Source: Anaerolineales bacterium
Lineage (GTDB): Bacteria; Chloroflexota; Anaerolineae; Anaerolineales; UBA11579
Length of the DNA stretch: 64,000 bases
Assembly (NCBI GenBank): GCA_016932165.1
Contig: JAFGDK010000034.1
Location: forward strand, 1 to 64,000
Direction: 5' to 3'
Made by a program: the position numbers and the translations under genes. Positions 11,188 to 17,038 of the stretch are shown one piece after another (positions within the stretch are counted from its first letter, which is position 1; every line of letters begins with the position of its first letter). The notes under the pieces are model-generated. The model saw nothing but the letters and a program-made list of their open reading frames with translations. It was not told the DNA's origin and did not search any database.

Positions 11188-12288
11188 TTAGATACCTGTC
11201 GCAACCATCTGCATGAACGTCTCGGTTACCTGGGGATCAAAGTGCTTCCCCTGCTGGTTTTGAATATAATCAACCACTTGCGGGCGGGGGAACTTCTTTC
11301 GATACGGGCGGTCTACCAGCATGGCATCCCACACATCCACGATCGAGAAAATCCGTGCCGAGAGCGGAATTGCTTCACCTCTCAAGCCGTTTGGATAGCC
11401 GCTGCCATCCCACTTTTCATGATGCGAAGACGGAATCTCCATGACTTCATCCGGTATTTCAAATTCCTTGAGCAAATCCTTCACAATCCGTGGATGAAGC
11501 CTCATAATCTTCCATTCAGACTCAGACAATGCGCCTGGTTTCAGGAGAATCTCGTCGGGGATCACGATCTTGCCAATATCGTGCAACAGCGCGCCGCGGC
11601 GGAAATTTTTCAGTCGTTCCCCGCTAAATCCCAGCCTCTGTGCCAGTTTGACCGCCAGGTCGGCGACCCGCCTGGTATGTTCTTTGGTTTCCTTATCCCG
11701 CTTATCCAGCAAGTTCACCCAACTGTCCACGATCTCATCCAGCGCTTCTTCATTGGTAGATGCATTCACCAATTCTGTAATACTATCGTGGAATTGGGGT
11801 GAGGATAAGCTCCGGTTGATCAACAGACCAGCTGAATTGGCCTCTTTCAGTTTTCTGAAGAACATCAGCCAGTAGCCGCTGGTTGCCAGGAAGTCATTCA
11901 CCCGGTAGATTCGCAAATACTGGTAACCTGACTGGTTGAGTAAGGTCTGCATTCGGGGATAACGTACCACTTCCTTCTGCAGCCTGAGTACGTTGCCATT
12001 GAATTTTAACCGGTCATTCGATATTCGCTTTGAAAACCTGGCAATTTCAACCTCAGTGGAAGGAATAATCGGCGGGAAACCCACTGCCGATGAGACATAA
12101 TAAGAATCGGGCGGACGTGAAAAAACCACCATGCCCCCATCCACATGCAGGTTGCGCAACAGGGCTAGATGATAGTTATCCGAGAATGCCACACTGGCAA
12201 ACGGTAGCGGGATCGATTCGATGAACGATTCCTTGGATTCTATTATCTTTGCCCCATTGGTTAAAGCCTGCTGTGATGGAAGTGTCAT
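11188..12288 (-). CDS. HD-GYP domain protein (putative c-di-GMP phosphodiesterase) with a divergent N-terminal sensor region
   Basis: HTRRVADLAVKLAQRLG, ALLHDIGKIVIPDEIL, HHEKWDGSGYPNGLRGEAIPLSARI. Confidence 0.92.
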   Translation of the reverse strand: MTLPSQQALTNGAKIIESKESFIESIPLPFASVAFSDNYHLALLRNLHVDGGMVVFSRPPDSYYVSSAVGFPPIIPSTEVEIARFSKRISNDRLKFNGNVLRLQKEVVRYPRMQTLLNQSGYQYLRIYRVNDFLATSGYWLMFFRKLKEANSAGLLINRSLSSPQFHDSITELVNASTNEEALDEIVDSWVNLLDKRDKETKEHTRRVADLAVKLAQRLGFSGERLKNFRRGALLHDIGKIVIPDEILLKPGALSESEWKIMRLHPRIVKDLLKEFEIPDEVMEIPSSHHEKWDGSGYPNGLRGEAIPLSARIFSIVDVWDAMLVDRPYRKKFPRPQVVDYIQNQQGKHFDPQVTETFMQMVATGI

Positions 12289-12315: not shown

Positions 12316-12543
12316 TTAGATCGCCTGGTCTATAATTCTGTACAATCCCTGAATAAATTGACCGACGTTCTTAGCCCGGATATTCATCACTTCTTGCTGA
12401 ATAATCTCCGGCAGCGGATATTCCTGAATCTTCTGTGACCGCTTCCCATTCAAAACGCCTGCTTTGAACTCTTCATCGATCAACGCACGTGTAGCTATGG
12501 CGTTGAGGTGCGCTTTTGAAATTCCGTAAGTCTGGGCTTGCAT
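12316..12543 (-). CDS. Small 75-aa protein resembling Os1348-type/NHLP-clan short proteins
   Basis: Pattern RALIDEEFKAGVL...YPLPEIIQQEVMNI.AKNVGQFIQGLYRII matches the remembered family signature (A..D.EF...L....L..Y.L...E...L..I.A....F...L). SD AGGAGG lies inside the preceding ORF. Confidence 0.6.
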   Translation of the reverse strand: MQAQTYGISKAHLNAIATRALIDEEFKAGVLNGKRSQKIQEYPLPEIIQQEVMNIRAKNVGQFIQGLYRIIDQAI

Positions 12544-12544
12544 A

Positions 12545-12694
12545 TTACCCTCCTATTCCACCTGGGATCGGGCCGGCCAGGACTTCACTGCCAAACAGTA
12601 AGCTTGATGCCAGCACCAATGCCATGAACGCAAACTTAATGATGGTGGTGAGTTTTCCAGAAACGGCCAGCTCTTTCACTTTTGCGATTAACAT
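12545..12694 (-). CDS. Unannotated 49-aa putative secreted peptide precursor: MLIAKVKELAVSGKLTTIIKFAFMALVLASSLLFGSEVLAGPIPGGIGG
   Basis: ATG with SD AAGGAG 9 nt upstream; basic N-region, hydrophobic core, VLA|G signal-peptidase-like site; TAA separated by 1 nt from the ATG of the next gene. Confidence 0.7.
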   Translation of the reverse strand: MLIAKVKELAVSGKLTTIIKFAFMALVLASSLLFGSEVLAGPIPGGIGG

Positions 12695-12736
12695 GTTCTT
12701 TTGCTCCTTAGGAATTTTCTTAAATTGTATGGATCA

Positions 12737-12760
12737 GTTATGAACAAAGTTCTGAACAAA
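12737..12760. repeat. Tandem 12-bp direct repeat GTTATGAACAAA-GTTCTGAACAAA upstream of the peptide operon
   Basis: 11/12 identical adjacent copies 43-66 bp upstream of the 49-aa ORF start. Confidence 0.55.
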
Positions 12761-12936: not shown

Positions 12937-13809
12937 TCAAGGATCGAAGCTGGATGCGTCTTGCGGTAATGTTTGGATCAACCGGACAAACTCCGTGACA
13001 CGGGCGTCATCCTGATGTGGGTATCGATAGCCAAAATGACGGGCAACGTCCTGCGCAGTGTCACGGAACAACTCCCCCATAGTATATAATGTTTTCCAGA
13101 AATTTCCAGAAACTGGCAACGAAAATACCTCTTTAATCATCCCCCAAAGGTCACGATCGAATTTATCCTCATAAAAACGCCCCAATTTACCGGGAGATTG
13201 CTCAAAATTCGTCTGTGCACCAAAATACCAGTTCAGCATTTTCAACAATTCACCCTTCATTAGATTCTGAAAATACCAAGGATAGATCACCTCTCCCCGC
13301 CATAATCCTTTGGCCACATACGGCATCAGCCACCAGAATTCATTGCAGCAGTGTCTAAATTGAATCTCTGTAGGAGGCATCGGCCAGTAACCTCGGTCAT
13401 TGGGAATTGGCTTTTCTTTAATCCGGTTATCTTTATCCAGCAGCACCAAGCTGAGAGTGTCGGAGCGAATGTTTTTTTCCAGATCCCTTGATAAGCAGAA
13501 TGTCAGGTCAATCCGGTTGCCATCGGTGAACTGCATCAGGTATGCATATCTGTCAGGATTATCTGAGAAAGAATCCCCCATCTCGTCTGGCAGCTGAAAT
13601 ATGATTGTTTCGCCAAAATATTCAAATACTGAGTAATTATGGATGTAAGGCTGGACCTCATCTACATAATAGACGACATCATAATCCTGGAAGATATCCG
13701 GCAATAGATTAGGATTTACCCTGGACCCGTTCAATACCACGGCCCTGATGTTGTCATCCTCCGAGGCATATTTCAGGATCAGATCAATCATCTCATCTTC
13801 TGTACGCAT
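12937..13809 (-). CDS. Aminoglycoside 6-adenylyltransferase (ANT(6)/AadE)-like protein
   Basis: MRTEDEMIDLILKYASEDDNIRAVVLNGSRVNPNLLPDIFQDYDVVYYV is typical of the ANT(6) family. Confidence 0.85.
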   Translation of the reverse strand: MRTEDEMIDLILKYASEDDNIRAVVLNGSRVNPNLLPDIFQDYDVVYYVDEVQPYIHNYSVFEYFGETIIFQLPDEMGDSFSDNPDRYAYLMQFTDGNRIDLTFCLSRDLEKNIRSDTLSLVLLDKDNRIKEKPIPNDRGYWPMPPTEIQFRHCCNEFWWLMPYVAKGLWRGEVIYPWYFQNLMKGELLKMLNWYFGAQTNFEQSPGKLGRFYEDKFDRDLWGMIKEVFSLPVSGNFWKTLYTMGELFRDTAQDVARHFGYRYPHQDDARVTEFVRLIQTLPQDASSFDP

Positions 13810-13834
13810 CGCCAGGAATCCTCGAACCACAAAT

Positions 13835-16800
13835 TCAATCTAAAGATTTGTAATATTTTTTCAAGGAATCATCAGGCTCAATCGCCATCTCTTCCTTTAG
13901 AATTCCCTTGTATTTCTTATAATGCTTCCGGGCAGCAGTCTTATCCCCCAGGGCTGCCAGGCACTGCATAATCCTCAAATGATAATCATCCTGATATGGA
14001 TCATATTCAATCGCCCGTTGATAGATTTCAAGAGCCGTCTGAAGATTGCGCTTCTCAAAATAGTCTTCGCCCATCTCACCCAGAATCTGTCGGAAACGGT
14101 TCTGGAGTTCAAATCGGCGATCATCTGCCCAGGGCATGTCAATATCCTCAAGGTAATCCGACTGATATAATTCCAAAATCCGGCGCATGGCCGTCCGGCG
14201 CTCAACTGCTGAATCTGATTTATCTAATCCCTCCAGCAGTTCTTGCACTTCTGCCACGTCAAAGTAGATCTGAGCATCTGGTGAAAATTGATATTCACCA
14301 TCCTCAAAGACAATGATGTTCTTACTGCCCAACGCCTTTCGCACACGCCACAAGGTGGCATGGAAATTACTATTAATCTTGGCTTGAGAAAAGTCAGGCC
14401 AGAAAGCAAGTGCAATTTCATCCTTGGTGACCCGTTTCCGGTCGAGAATGAAATAAAACAACGCCCTCGCCCCAACTGAACTCCAAGCCCTGTGCGGCAG
14501 GTTTCTACCATTCAAGCGTATCTGCCCATGGTTCAGACCAAACACATTCAAAATAACAGCCTCTTCTTCCTCTTCCCGCTTATCAGAAATCAGCTCCTCG
14601 AGAGTGGGCAGTGACTGCTTCGCCCGTTCCAGAATCGAAACCACCTGAGGAGATTCGTCTTCTTTGAGAACTGGGCCCACCAGTTTCATATTATTCCGCA
14701 CCGCATTAACTAAAAACTGGTCATAGCCCAGAGATGCGGCCAACTCTAATGCTTCATGAATGTGCCTCCTGGCAAGATCATCAGTCCCCTCAATCAGATT
14801 CAGGATCGCATAATAAAAATTCAGCTCCACGTTCTCCTGAGAGAGCGGTTTGCTTCCATTGCCATTTGCCAGTAAAGATTCAAATGTCTTTCGGGCCAAT
14901 CGGTTCTGCCCCATGGCAAGATACAATTTTGCAAACCTCAACTGATAAGCTGGATTTTCAATGTCCTGCTTTTGAATCCGGGCTAGCTCACGGATATAGT
15001 ACATCGCGGTGTTAAAATCCTGCCTGTTGATCTCCACCTCGACCAAGCCGGAGTAGGCATCTGCAATTGCGCCGTATTCTTCCAGTTTTTCGGCTTGCTG
15101 GCGGGCATTCTGATAGATGTCTTCCGCCTGCTTCCATTCCCCGATTTCACGCAGCAGGTCTGCCTGTCCATTGTTGATATACGCTTTTAACCGGTTCAGA
15201 TTGTTATATTTCGCCACCTCAAGGGCCTGCAAATAATGCGCCCAGGCATCTGCGTATTTACCCATTAAGTAGTTCAGATAAGCAAAATTGTTATGACCGG
15301 TAGCCAGATCATTGAAATTAGTTCTCATTCGCCGGGCAATATCCAGCGCTTCACGATAGCTGATTTGCGCTTCAAATATATTGCCAGCATCCAGAGCAAT
15401 ATATCCGATATCTGCCAGGGTCATGACCAGCTCGTGAGCCTGGCGCGCCTGAAAATCTTCATCCAGCATCTCCCGCAAAGCCCTTGCCGCTCTCTTCAAG
15501 CTGTCGAGCGCCGCGTCAGGATCCCCCAGATAATACGAGGTCATTCCCTTCAATCGTTCGGCTTGATACCAGTAATACCGGTCCAAATGGTATTCATCCA
15601 CCTTCTTTTGAACCGCCTGTGCCCACCGGGCAGCTTCATCGTACTTGCCGGTAAACCGCAGCACCATTCCGCGGCTGACCATGAGATTACAGTGGGTATT
15701 GTGATCCTCTCGCTTGATTAAAATTTCCTCAGCGGTGTCCATCAAAGTCATCGCCTGATCAAACTCGCTCAGGGTGACCTTGTATTTTGCCAGATTCAAC
15801 AACAGATCAGGTGCATTGGAGATCAGTGAAGGCGAATCCTTTATATCGCTGTACCACTGATCCAACACTTTTGCCTGGCCTGAGAGATACATTTCGCGTG
15901 AAACTTGATCCACCAGGGAGACAGCCTGCTGTTTTTCATCCGCCAGGAAGTAATGCGTGATCGACTTTACCAGCTGCCCTTCTTGCCTATACCAATCTGC
16001 AATTTTGCTATGCAGATCAGACAGCCGCTCAGGATAAGCACCTTCCAGGCTGCCTTGCAAGAATTCTGAAAATAATTGGTGGTAGCGGTAGTGAGTTTCA
16101 ACGCTGCTTTCTGAAGAAGAAGACAGGAATAAATTCAACTCTTCCAATTGTTTAATCACATCTTTGGCGTTCTTAATCCTCAGCAGATGATTGGCCATCG
16201 GGATCGAAAACTCATCCACAAGACTCGTGGCATACAGGAAATTGATTAAATGCTCCGGCAGCGAATGAATGACCTCGTCTGCCAGGTAGGTGTACACATG
16301 CTGGCGCGCTCCCAAGATCTTTGGGATCTCAACAGAAAGATTCTCAGATCGTAATGCCAGCAAAATTGCCACGATCCAGCCTTCCGCCTGTTCCAAAATC
16401 TGCGTAGACTGCTCCGCGGTGAGTTGGATATGGTAATACCTCCAGCACAGCTCGATAATCTCATCCTGCCGGAACTTGAGATCATCCTCACTGATAATGG
16501 CCAACTGTTCCTGCACATACAGCAAAGCGGTGGGGATACCATACACATTCCGCGATCCGATCATGATCCGCAATTGGTCGGGGAGGTAATTAATTAACGC
16601 CTCCACAAAATCGGTGATCTCAGGTTCAACAGAAACCAGATGGTAATCATCCAGCACCAGAATGCTGAAATCCTGCAGCGTCTCCTCCAGCTGGTTGACC
16701 AGCCGGTAAGCCAATTCCTGTGGGGATGGCAGTCCTTCTTCGAGCGATAAAGCCAGATCATTCCCAAATTCAGGATGATGCAGCTTAAAGGATTGGATCA

Positions 16801-17038
16801 CATTTTCATAAAAAGTCGCCAGATTTGTATCATCGGTTGTGATCCGGAACCAGTAAACAACCGCGTCAATATCATCAGCAAAGTCCACCAGCAGAGTGGT
16901 CTTTCCATATCCCGCCGGCGCGCATACAAACAACACCTTTCGGTGAATGTTGTTGTGCAGCATATCCAGCAGCCGGGTACGATGGAGAGTTCTTGGCTGT
17001 CTACGTGGCGGAACTAATTTTACATTCGGGGAAAGCAT
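13835..17038 (-). CDS. MalT-like STAND ATPase/TPR transcriptional regulator with C-terminal winged helix + BTAD
   Basis: Walker A APAGYGKTTLLVDFA, Walker B ILVLDDYHLV, TPR-like middle, C-terminal wHTH followed by BTAD-like region (DVAEVQELLEGL...YQSDYLEDIDMPWADDRR). Confidence 0.9.
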   Translation of the reverse strand: MLSPNVKLVPPRRQPRTLHRTRLLDMLHNNIHRKVLFVCAPAGYGKTTLLVDFADDIDAVVYWFRITTDDTNLATFYENVIQSFKLHHPEFGNDLALSLEEGLPSPQELAYRLVNQLEETLQDFSILVLDDYHLVSVEPEITDFVEALINYLPDQLRIMIGSRNVYGIPTALLYVQEQLAIISEDDLKFRQDEIIELCWRYYHIQLTAEQSTQILEQAEGWIVAILLALRSENLSVEIPKILGARQHVYTYLADEVIHSLPEHLINFLYATSLVDEFSIPMANHLLRIKNAKDVIKQLEELNLFLSSSSESSVETHYRYHQLFSEFLQGSLEGAYPERLSDLHSKIADWYRQEGQLVKSITHYFLADEKQQAVSLVDQVSREMYLSGQAKVLDQWYSDIKDSPSLISNAPDLLLNLAKYKVTLSEFDQAMTLMDTAEEILIKREDHNTHCNLMVSRGMVLRFTGKYDEAARWAQAVQKKVDEYHLDRYYWYQAERLKGMTSYYLGDPDAALDSLKRAARALREMLDEDFQARQAHELVMTLADIGYIALDAGNIFEAQISYREALDIARRMRTNFNDLATGHNNFAYLNYLMGKYADAWAHYLQALEVAKYNNLNRLKAYINNGQADLLREIGEWKQAEDIYQNARQQAEKLEEYGAIADAYSGLVEVEINRQDFNTAMYYIRELARIQKQDIENPAYQLRFAKLYLAMGQNRLARKTFESLLANGNGSKPLSQENVELNFYYAILNLIEGTDDLARRHIHEALELAASLGYDQFLVNAVRNNMKLVGPVLKEDESPQVVSILERAKQSLPTLEELISDKREEEEEAVILNVFGLNHGQIRLNGRNLPHRAWSSVGARALFYFILDRKRVTKDEIALAFWPDFSQAKINSNFHATLWRVRKALGSKNIIVFEDGEYQFSPDAQIYFDVAEVQELLEGLDKSDSAVERRTAMRRILELYQSDYLEDIDMPWADDRRFELQNRFRQILGEMGEDYFEKRNLQTALEIYQRAIEYDPYQDDYHLRIMQCLAALGDKTAARKHYKKYKGILKEEMAIEPDDSLKKYYKSLD

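Follow-up and report, generated by a model that had tools for sequence, protein, structure and literature searches.

A 49-codon open reading frame (ORF) on the minus strand of the window, the 64,000-nucleotide stretch of Anaerolineales contig JAFGDK010000034.1 analyzed here, is a real, conserved gene whose occurrence goes beyond chance. Sequence comparisons suggest that its product is probably the precursor of a short peptide signal, secreted as part of a self-activating regulator circuit. The ORF translates as MLIAKVKELAVSGKLTTIIKFAFMALVLASSLLFGSEVLA followed by the tail GPIPGGIGG and runs from an ATG at 12694 to a TAA at 12547-12545, with 9 nt separating the AAGGAG from the start codon. A first-pass annotation had reported this position, start, and ribosome-binding motif, and re-reading the sequence reproduced them exactly; the Lys-bearing N-terminal part, the hydrophobic h-region (residues 21 to 35), and the V-L-A just before GPIPGGIGG that it described are likewise all present. 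The n-, h-, and c-regions were assigned by inspection and hydropathy, and the putative cleavage site follows from sequence rules. The peptide matches no model in Pfam or NCBIfam, and its gene is single-copy in its own genome. On the same strand, genes for a large regulator and an adenylyltransferase-like protein precede the propeptide gene, and genes for a 75-aa protein and an HD-GYP protein follow it (Table 1). The first-pass annotation mentioned neither the operator in the promoter nor the regulator gene upstream, and it did not recognize the 75-aa protein as a member of the Os1348 family.

Table 1. Features of the propeptide locus, in window coordinates
Feature	Position	Strand	Basis or remark
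HD-GYP domain protein, probable c-di-GMP phosphodiesterase, same operon	11188..12288	-	Domain search
75-aa Os1348-family/NHLP-clan protein	12316..12543	-	Profile matches of homologues
49-aa propeptide gene	12545..12694	-	Signal-like residues 1-40, tail GPIPGGIGG residues 41-49
Codons of predicted mature tail GPIPGGIGG	12548..12574	-	Predicted cleavage
Shine-Dalgarno AAGGAG of propeptide gene	12704..12709	-	Read from sequence
-10 element TACAAT	12724..12729	-	After repeat
Putative SARP-type operator, 12-bp direct repeat TTGTTCAGAACT TTGTTCATAACT	12736..12759	-	Upstream of peptide start
ANT(6)-like nucleotidyltransferase (aminoglycoside-adenylyltransferase-like)	12937..13830	-	Between regulator and peptide promoter
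1067-aa STAND regulator	13835..17038	-	MalT-like ATPase, TPR superhelix, winged helix + BTAD (SARP)

Alignable relatives of the propeptide lie directly upstream of a homologue of the 75-aa protein in genomes G001, G002, G003, G009, and G012, with two propeptide genes in tandem in G003. The first-pass annotation had tied its case to the persistence of the ORF and its boundary wherever the 75-aa neighbor is kept; relatives retain both, the boundaries reading FAFA↓GPIPGGAGS, VMA↓GPSPGGIGG, YAD/GPSPGPVGG, and LAAA↓GPGTGAT. Most of the relatives' propeptides are 32 to 90 aa long (one has 109 aa), bracketing the 49 aa of the window copy. An automatic propeptide rule, which called for a ribosome site, a length of 25 to 130 aa, a hydrophobic 13-mer, and at least four Gly or Pro among the last 12 residues, was satisfied in 55 of 82 regulator-to-Os1348 intervals (at one of the 55, L130, by a different ORF, with the expected ORF also there) and in none on the opposite strand. 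Dinucleotide shuffles (n = 50) satisfied it in 0.68 intervals on average, with a maximum of 2. Most of the intervals that fail the rule hold other precursor forms, including repeat precursors that lack a hydrophobic segment (HPVGGGIGTGPGLS four times, NRPVGGGVGG five times) and precursors with tails ending CxxC (GAPICIMC). Once repeat-type and Cys-tail forms had been assigned by hand, about 70 intervals contained a precursor.

Some relatives carry three to seven tandem tails. At loci L081 to L092, mostly from genus g9, four or five tandem tails occur with the signal sequence absent, and the signal-less four-repeat products of g9 measure 63 to 66 aa. The tails of most clades are plain Gly/Pro sequences with no Ser, Thr, or Cys. 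At five loci (L111, L113, L117, L119, and L130), GAP..CxxC tails stand at the very C terminus and could form a small disulfide ring.

Substitution patterns single out the tail. Pooled over 11 orthologous propeptide pairs, dN/dS is 0.24. Between tandem gene copies, the tail shows 18 synonymous differences per 78 sites versus 1 nonsynonymous difference per 177, and the N-terminal part shows 49.5 synonymous differences per 142 sites and 21.5 nonsynonymous per 373. Further, G001, a member of the same genus, encodes one precursor with seven (Y/F)GPIPGGVGG units whose codons vary. These comparisons indicate that the tail is the unit under selection, a pattern that fits a multi-copy ligand precursor.

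The neighboring 75-aa protein belongs to a small-protein family recognized through its relatives. Of its 17 homologues, 13 are hits to NF038399, the Os1348 family model in the NHLP clan (best E value, 5.8e-8), and 7 to PF14407 (best, 9.3e-8), although the window copy alone falls below detection by both models. The protein is predicted to be all-helical, and at E < 0.001 a foldseek search with the model returned no similar structure from the PDB. The namesake of the family, Os1348, is a small protein that has been crystallised and linked to antibiotic activity in Pseudomonas (PMC7726476); a difference from the family is that the member described here is fixed in a SARP-propeptide module. Homologues are present in 34 of 61 close relatives (E ≤ 0.1), in about a third of the genomes sampled from the class (122 of 397; E ≤ 0.01), and in 44 of 399 genomes from a phylum-wide draw (E ≤ 1e-4). 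Perhaps the protein acts as a chaperone, an escort, or a second component. In one genome (G021, locus L081), the Os1348-like gene is present in duplicate.

The conserved module consists of a STAND regulator, one or more propeptides of 30 to 110 aa, and an Os1348/NHLP-clan protein, often followed by HD-GYP or two-component proteins. Among the fetched loci, the regulator lies upstream on the same strand for 67 of 83 Os1348-like matches, with several of the rest at contig ends, and a small ORF is nearly always found between the two genes. The module is widespread in its class, Anaerolineae. Regulator and propeptide genes are adjacent in most relatives, and the window has one gene inserted. This ANT(6)-like gene was seen at this place in G000 and G001 only and does not belong to the conserved module; since its product scores 249.7 against an NCBIfam cut-off of 420, a drug-modifying function is not indicated. 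None of the other four BTAD loci of the window's own genome has such a peptide downstream. At long-gap loci within L102 to L152 (for example, L137), a DUF5317 membrane protein is encoded between the peptide and the Os1348-like gene and is a candidate exporter or processing factor.

The 1067-aa regulator, whose homologues span about 1044 to 1095 aa, is a candidate for both the receptor and the activator of the system. Domain searches matched TPR_12 and TPR_MalT, and an AlphaFold model (mean pLDDT, 88) contains a helical superhelix at about residues 410 to 810. Like MalT and the large SARP/LAL regulators, the protein combines a MalT-type N-terminal ATPase, similar to MalT (8bob) by both sequence and fold searches, with a SARP part similar to AfsR (8hvr) by sequence search; unlike them, it has the order STAND-TPR-winged helix-BTAD and a linked propeptide gene. 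The fold search also returned another STAND-TPR protein, 6mfv.

Upstream of the peptide genes, the spacing of short repeats points to SARP control. Direct repeats with a period of 11 or 12 bp occur in 53 of 75 peptide upstreams, compared with 13% of random windows from the same loci. Taken by spacing, 23 and 30 of the 75 upstreams score at 11 and 12 bp, respectively, where shuffles give about 1.5 each; other spacings score in 1 to 6 upstreams, with the exception of 23 bp, close to two periods, at which 10 do. A TANNNT (-10-like) element starts 8 to 9 bp past the repeat in 26 of the 53, against a background of about 1.6. In published SARP promoters, the repeats are spaced by 11 or 22 bp, and 8 bp separate the 3' repeat from the -10 element (PMC10936776; PMC5930380). 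The predicted peptide promoter fits this rule, the period in the window being 12 bp and transcription being predicted to start near 12717. Clades differ in the sequence of the repeat and share its spacing.

Divergence within the module is partly linked. Among 34 loci, divergence of the operator is best followed by that of the winged helix (partial r = 0.35, p = 0.002), and among 38 loci, divergence of the tail, delimited by eye for this test, is best followed by that of the TPR region (partial r = 0.31, p = 0.002); these correlations are modest, and residual links of tail with ATPase (r = 0.17) and of operator with TPR region (r = 0.21) mean that the separation is not clean. As a control, divergence of the Os1348-like protein follows the ATPase domain instead.

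In the circuit that we favor, the winged helix of the regulator would bind the tandem repeat upstream of the peptide gene and recruit RNA polymerase, driving the peptide, Os1348-like, and HD-GYP genes as one operon. The signal sequence would export the precursor, which would be cut to the approximately nine-residue Gly/Pro-rich GPIPGGIGG. The peptide may then re-enter the cell and bind the TPR superhelix, freeing the SARP domain from inhibition by the ATPase and TPR parts and closing a positive-feedback, quorum-type switch whose outputs would apparently include c-di-GMP turnover and further regulators. A peptide signal had already been proposed in the first-pass annotation, and it is the best reading of the gene, backed by the TPR regulator and its operator. 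The precursors of genus g9 have no signal sequence, so their export would need another route. Against the circuit stands the Os1348-like partner, for which known peptide-pheromone systems offer no equivalent.

AfsR, the best-studied relative of the regulator, also counts against the favored circuit: it responds to ATP and phosphorylation, and we know of no peptide ligand for it. The main rival to a secreted signal is modeled on this protein and its target AfsS in Streptomyces: the small product would be an intracellular or membrane-held relay of SARP activation, and the regulator would sense ATP, phosphorylation, or a metabolite. We consider this unlikely, if deserving of serious attention, and in evolution the two are not mutually exclusive. 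The wiring is the same, a large NOD/TPR SARP activating a small gene via two 11-bp direct repeats that overlap the -35 region (PMC10936776), and AfsS, with 63 aa and three 12-aa repeats (PMC2267785), resembles the signal-less tandem-repeat products of g9. In the module described here, however, the SARP domain is C-terminal rather than N-terminal as in AfsR, the repeat period is often 12 rather than 11 bp, and an Os1348-like gene follows. Most products here also have a hydrophobic, export-like segment and then a short Gly/Pro tail, constancy lies in the tails and not in the N-terminal parts, and the tails diverge in step with the regulator's TPR region, all of which argue for a secreted ligand over an internal relay.

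An antimicrobial or modified product (a RiPP or bacteriocin) under SARP control, made from the peptide alone or together with the Os1348-like protein, strikes us as improbable. RiPP precursors do occur within the NHLP clan, the link of Os1348 to antibiotic activity (PMC7726476) points the same way, and Streptomyces antibiotics are under SARP control. Yet no modification enzyme was found among the scanned neighbors, which comprise part of the ORFs across roughly 9 kb to one side of the locus and 18 kb to its other side, and no core peptide is fused to the NHLP-clan protein, which has its own gene; on these two counts the first-pass suggestion of a modified-peptide precursor is not supported. 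The plain tails of most clades, the identical tandem tails, and the co-divergence with the TPR region would also be unexpected for a bacteriocin. A structural or stress-related small membrane protein, with a Gly-rich end that has no signaling role and only incidental control by the regulator, earns slightly less credence again. The hydrophobic segment is the commonest feature of the products and cleavage is a prediction, but some tandem-tail precursors have no membrane segment, tails are found in seven copies in G001, and purifying selection is specific to the tail. As for a chance ORF, or one that serves only as a translational leader for the 75-aa gene, a single base separates the propeptide stop from the ATG of that gene (12543), and a GGAGGG precedes this start. 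From the GGAGGG the first-pass annotation had concluded that the two ORFs are translationally coupled. The features themselves stand and the arrangement is kept within the genus, but most relatives keep the peptide and lose the coupling, which was overrated. With conservation among relatives, the shuffles, and dN/dS all bearing out the ORF as a genuine gene, the chance or leader reading is very improbable and largely refuted by the conserved peptide sequence.

The favored peptide-signal reading recalls the RRNPP systems (Rap-Phr, NprR-NprX, PlcR-PapR, and AimR-AimP), in which a small propeptide gene likewise sits by the gene for a TPR regulator, the propeptide has an N-terminal export segment, with a putative counterpart here, and a short C-terminal tail, repeated in some precursors, and the TPR domain corresponds to the candidate peptide sensor here. 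RRNPP systems are defined by a propeptide of 10 to 100 aa with a Sec signal, a receptor of 250 to 500 aa with TPRs, and adjacent genes (PMC10075063). The 49-aa propeptide falls within this range, the receptor candidate bears TPRs, and the two genes are neighbors in most relatives; the Sec signal is represented by n-, h-, and c-regions read by eye and hydropathy and is lacking in g9, and the 1067-aa regulator far exceeds the receptor length. Unlike the helix-turn-helix regulators of RRNPP, it joins a STAND ATPase to a C-terminal SARP part, and the module belongs to Chloroflexota rather than Firmicutes and has a conserved NHLP-clan partner gene. Because of the receptor length and the different output domain, we do not file the module under RRNPP.

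Peptide quorum sensing has so far come mainly from Firmicutes. In the open-access literature searched, which leaves most subscription papers outside its scope, we found no earlier report of the regulator-propeptide pairing and none of peptide quorum sensing in Chloroflexota. In our judgment the chances are evenly balanced that the module represents a new class of peptide signaling, one that would unite STAND-TPR-SARP receptors, secreted Gly/Pro propeptides, an NHLP-clan partner, lineage-specific codes, and co-diverging operators, with AfsR-AfsS as an intracellular cousin. If so, TPR-based peptide signaling would also occur outside Firmicutes, coupled there to a DNA-binding output of unrelated type, and a candidate kind of ligand would be at hand for the large SARP/STAND regulators, few of which have an established natural stimulus. 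The system offers testable peptides, such as synthetic GPIPGGIGG, and predicted operators.

Operator matches elsewhere suggest what such regulators may control. As a looser pattern that omitted the -10 element gave several chance-like matches, for example inside coding genes, sites were kept only with a -10 element. The operator is nearly unique within a genome: five of six genomes of genus g55 contain exactly one match to operator plus -10 element, which lies at the peptide promoter, and the reversed pattern used as a control matches nowhere. G003 has more sites, before two GAF-HD-GYP proteins and one metallo-beta-lactamase-fold protein, and in genomes of family f53 (L261, L265, and L268), an operator with a -10 element precedes LuxR-type HTH or receiver genes. 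Taken with the HD-GYP gene of the window's own operon, these sites suggest c-di-GMP turnover and further regulators as the output. The window's own genome also contains a second operator (L249; C10:7098-7132, minus strand), identical to that of the window over 19 bases and accompanied by TACAAT. It precedes a 66-nt stretch with two hairpins, the second of them terminator-like (fold z, -3.1), possibly a small RNA under the regulator's control, or else simply the terminator that serves a converging lipoprotein gene.
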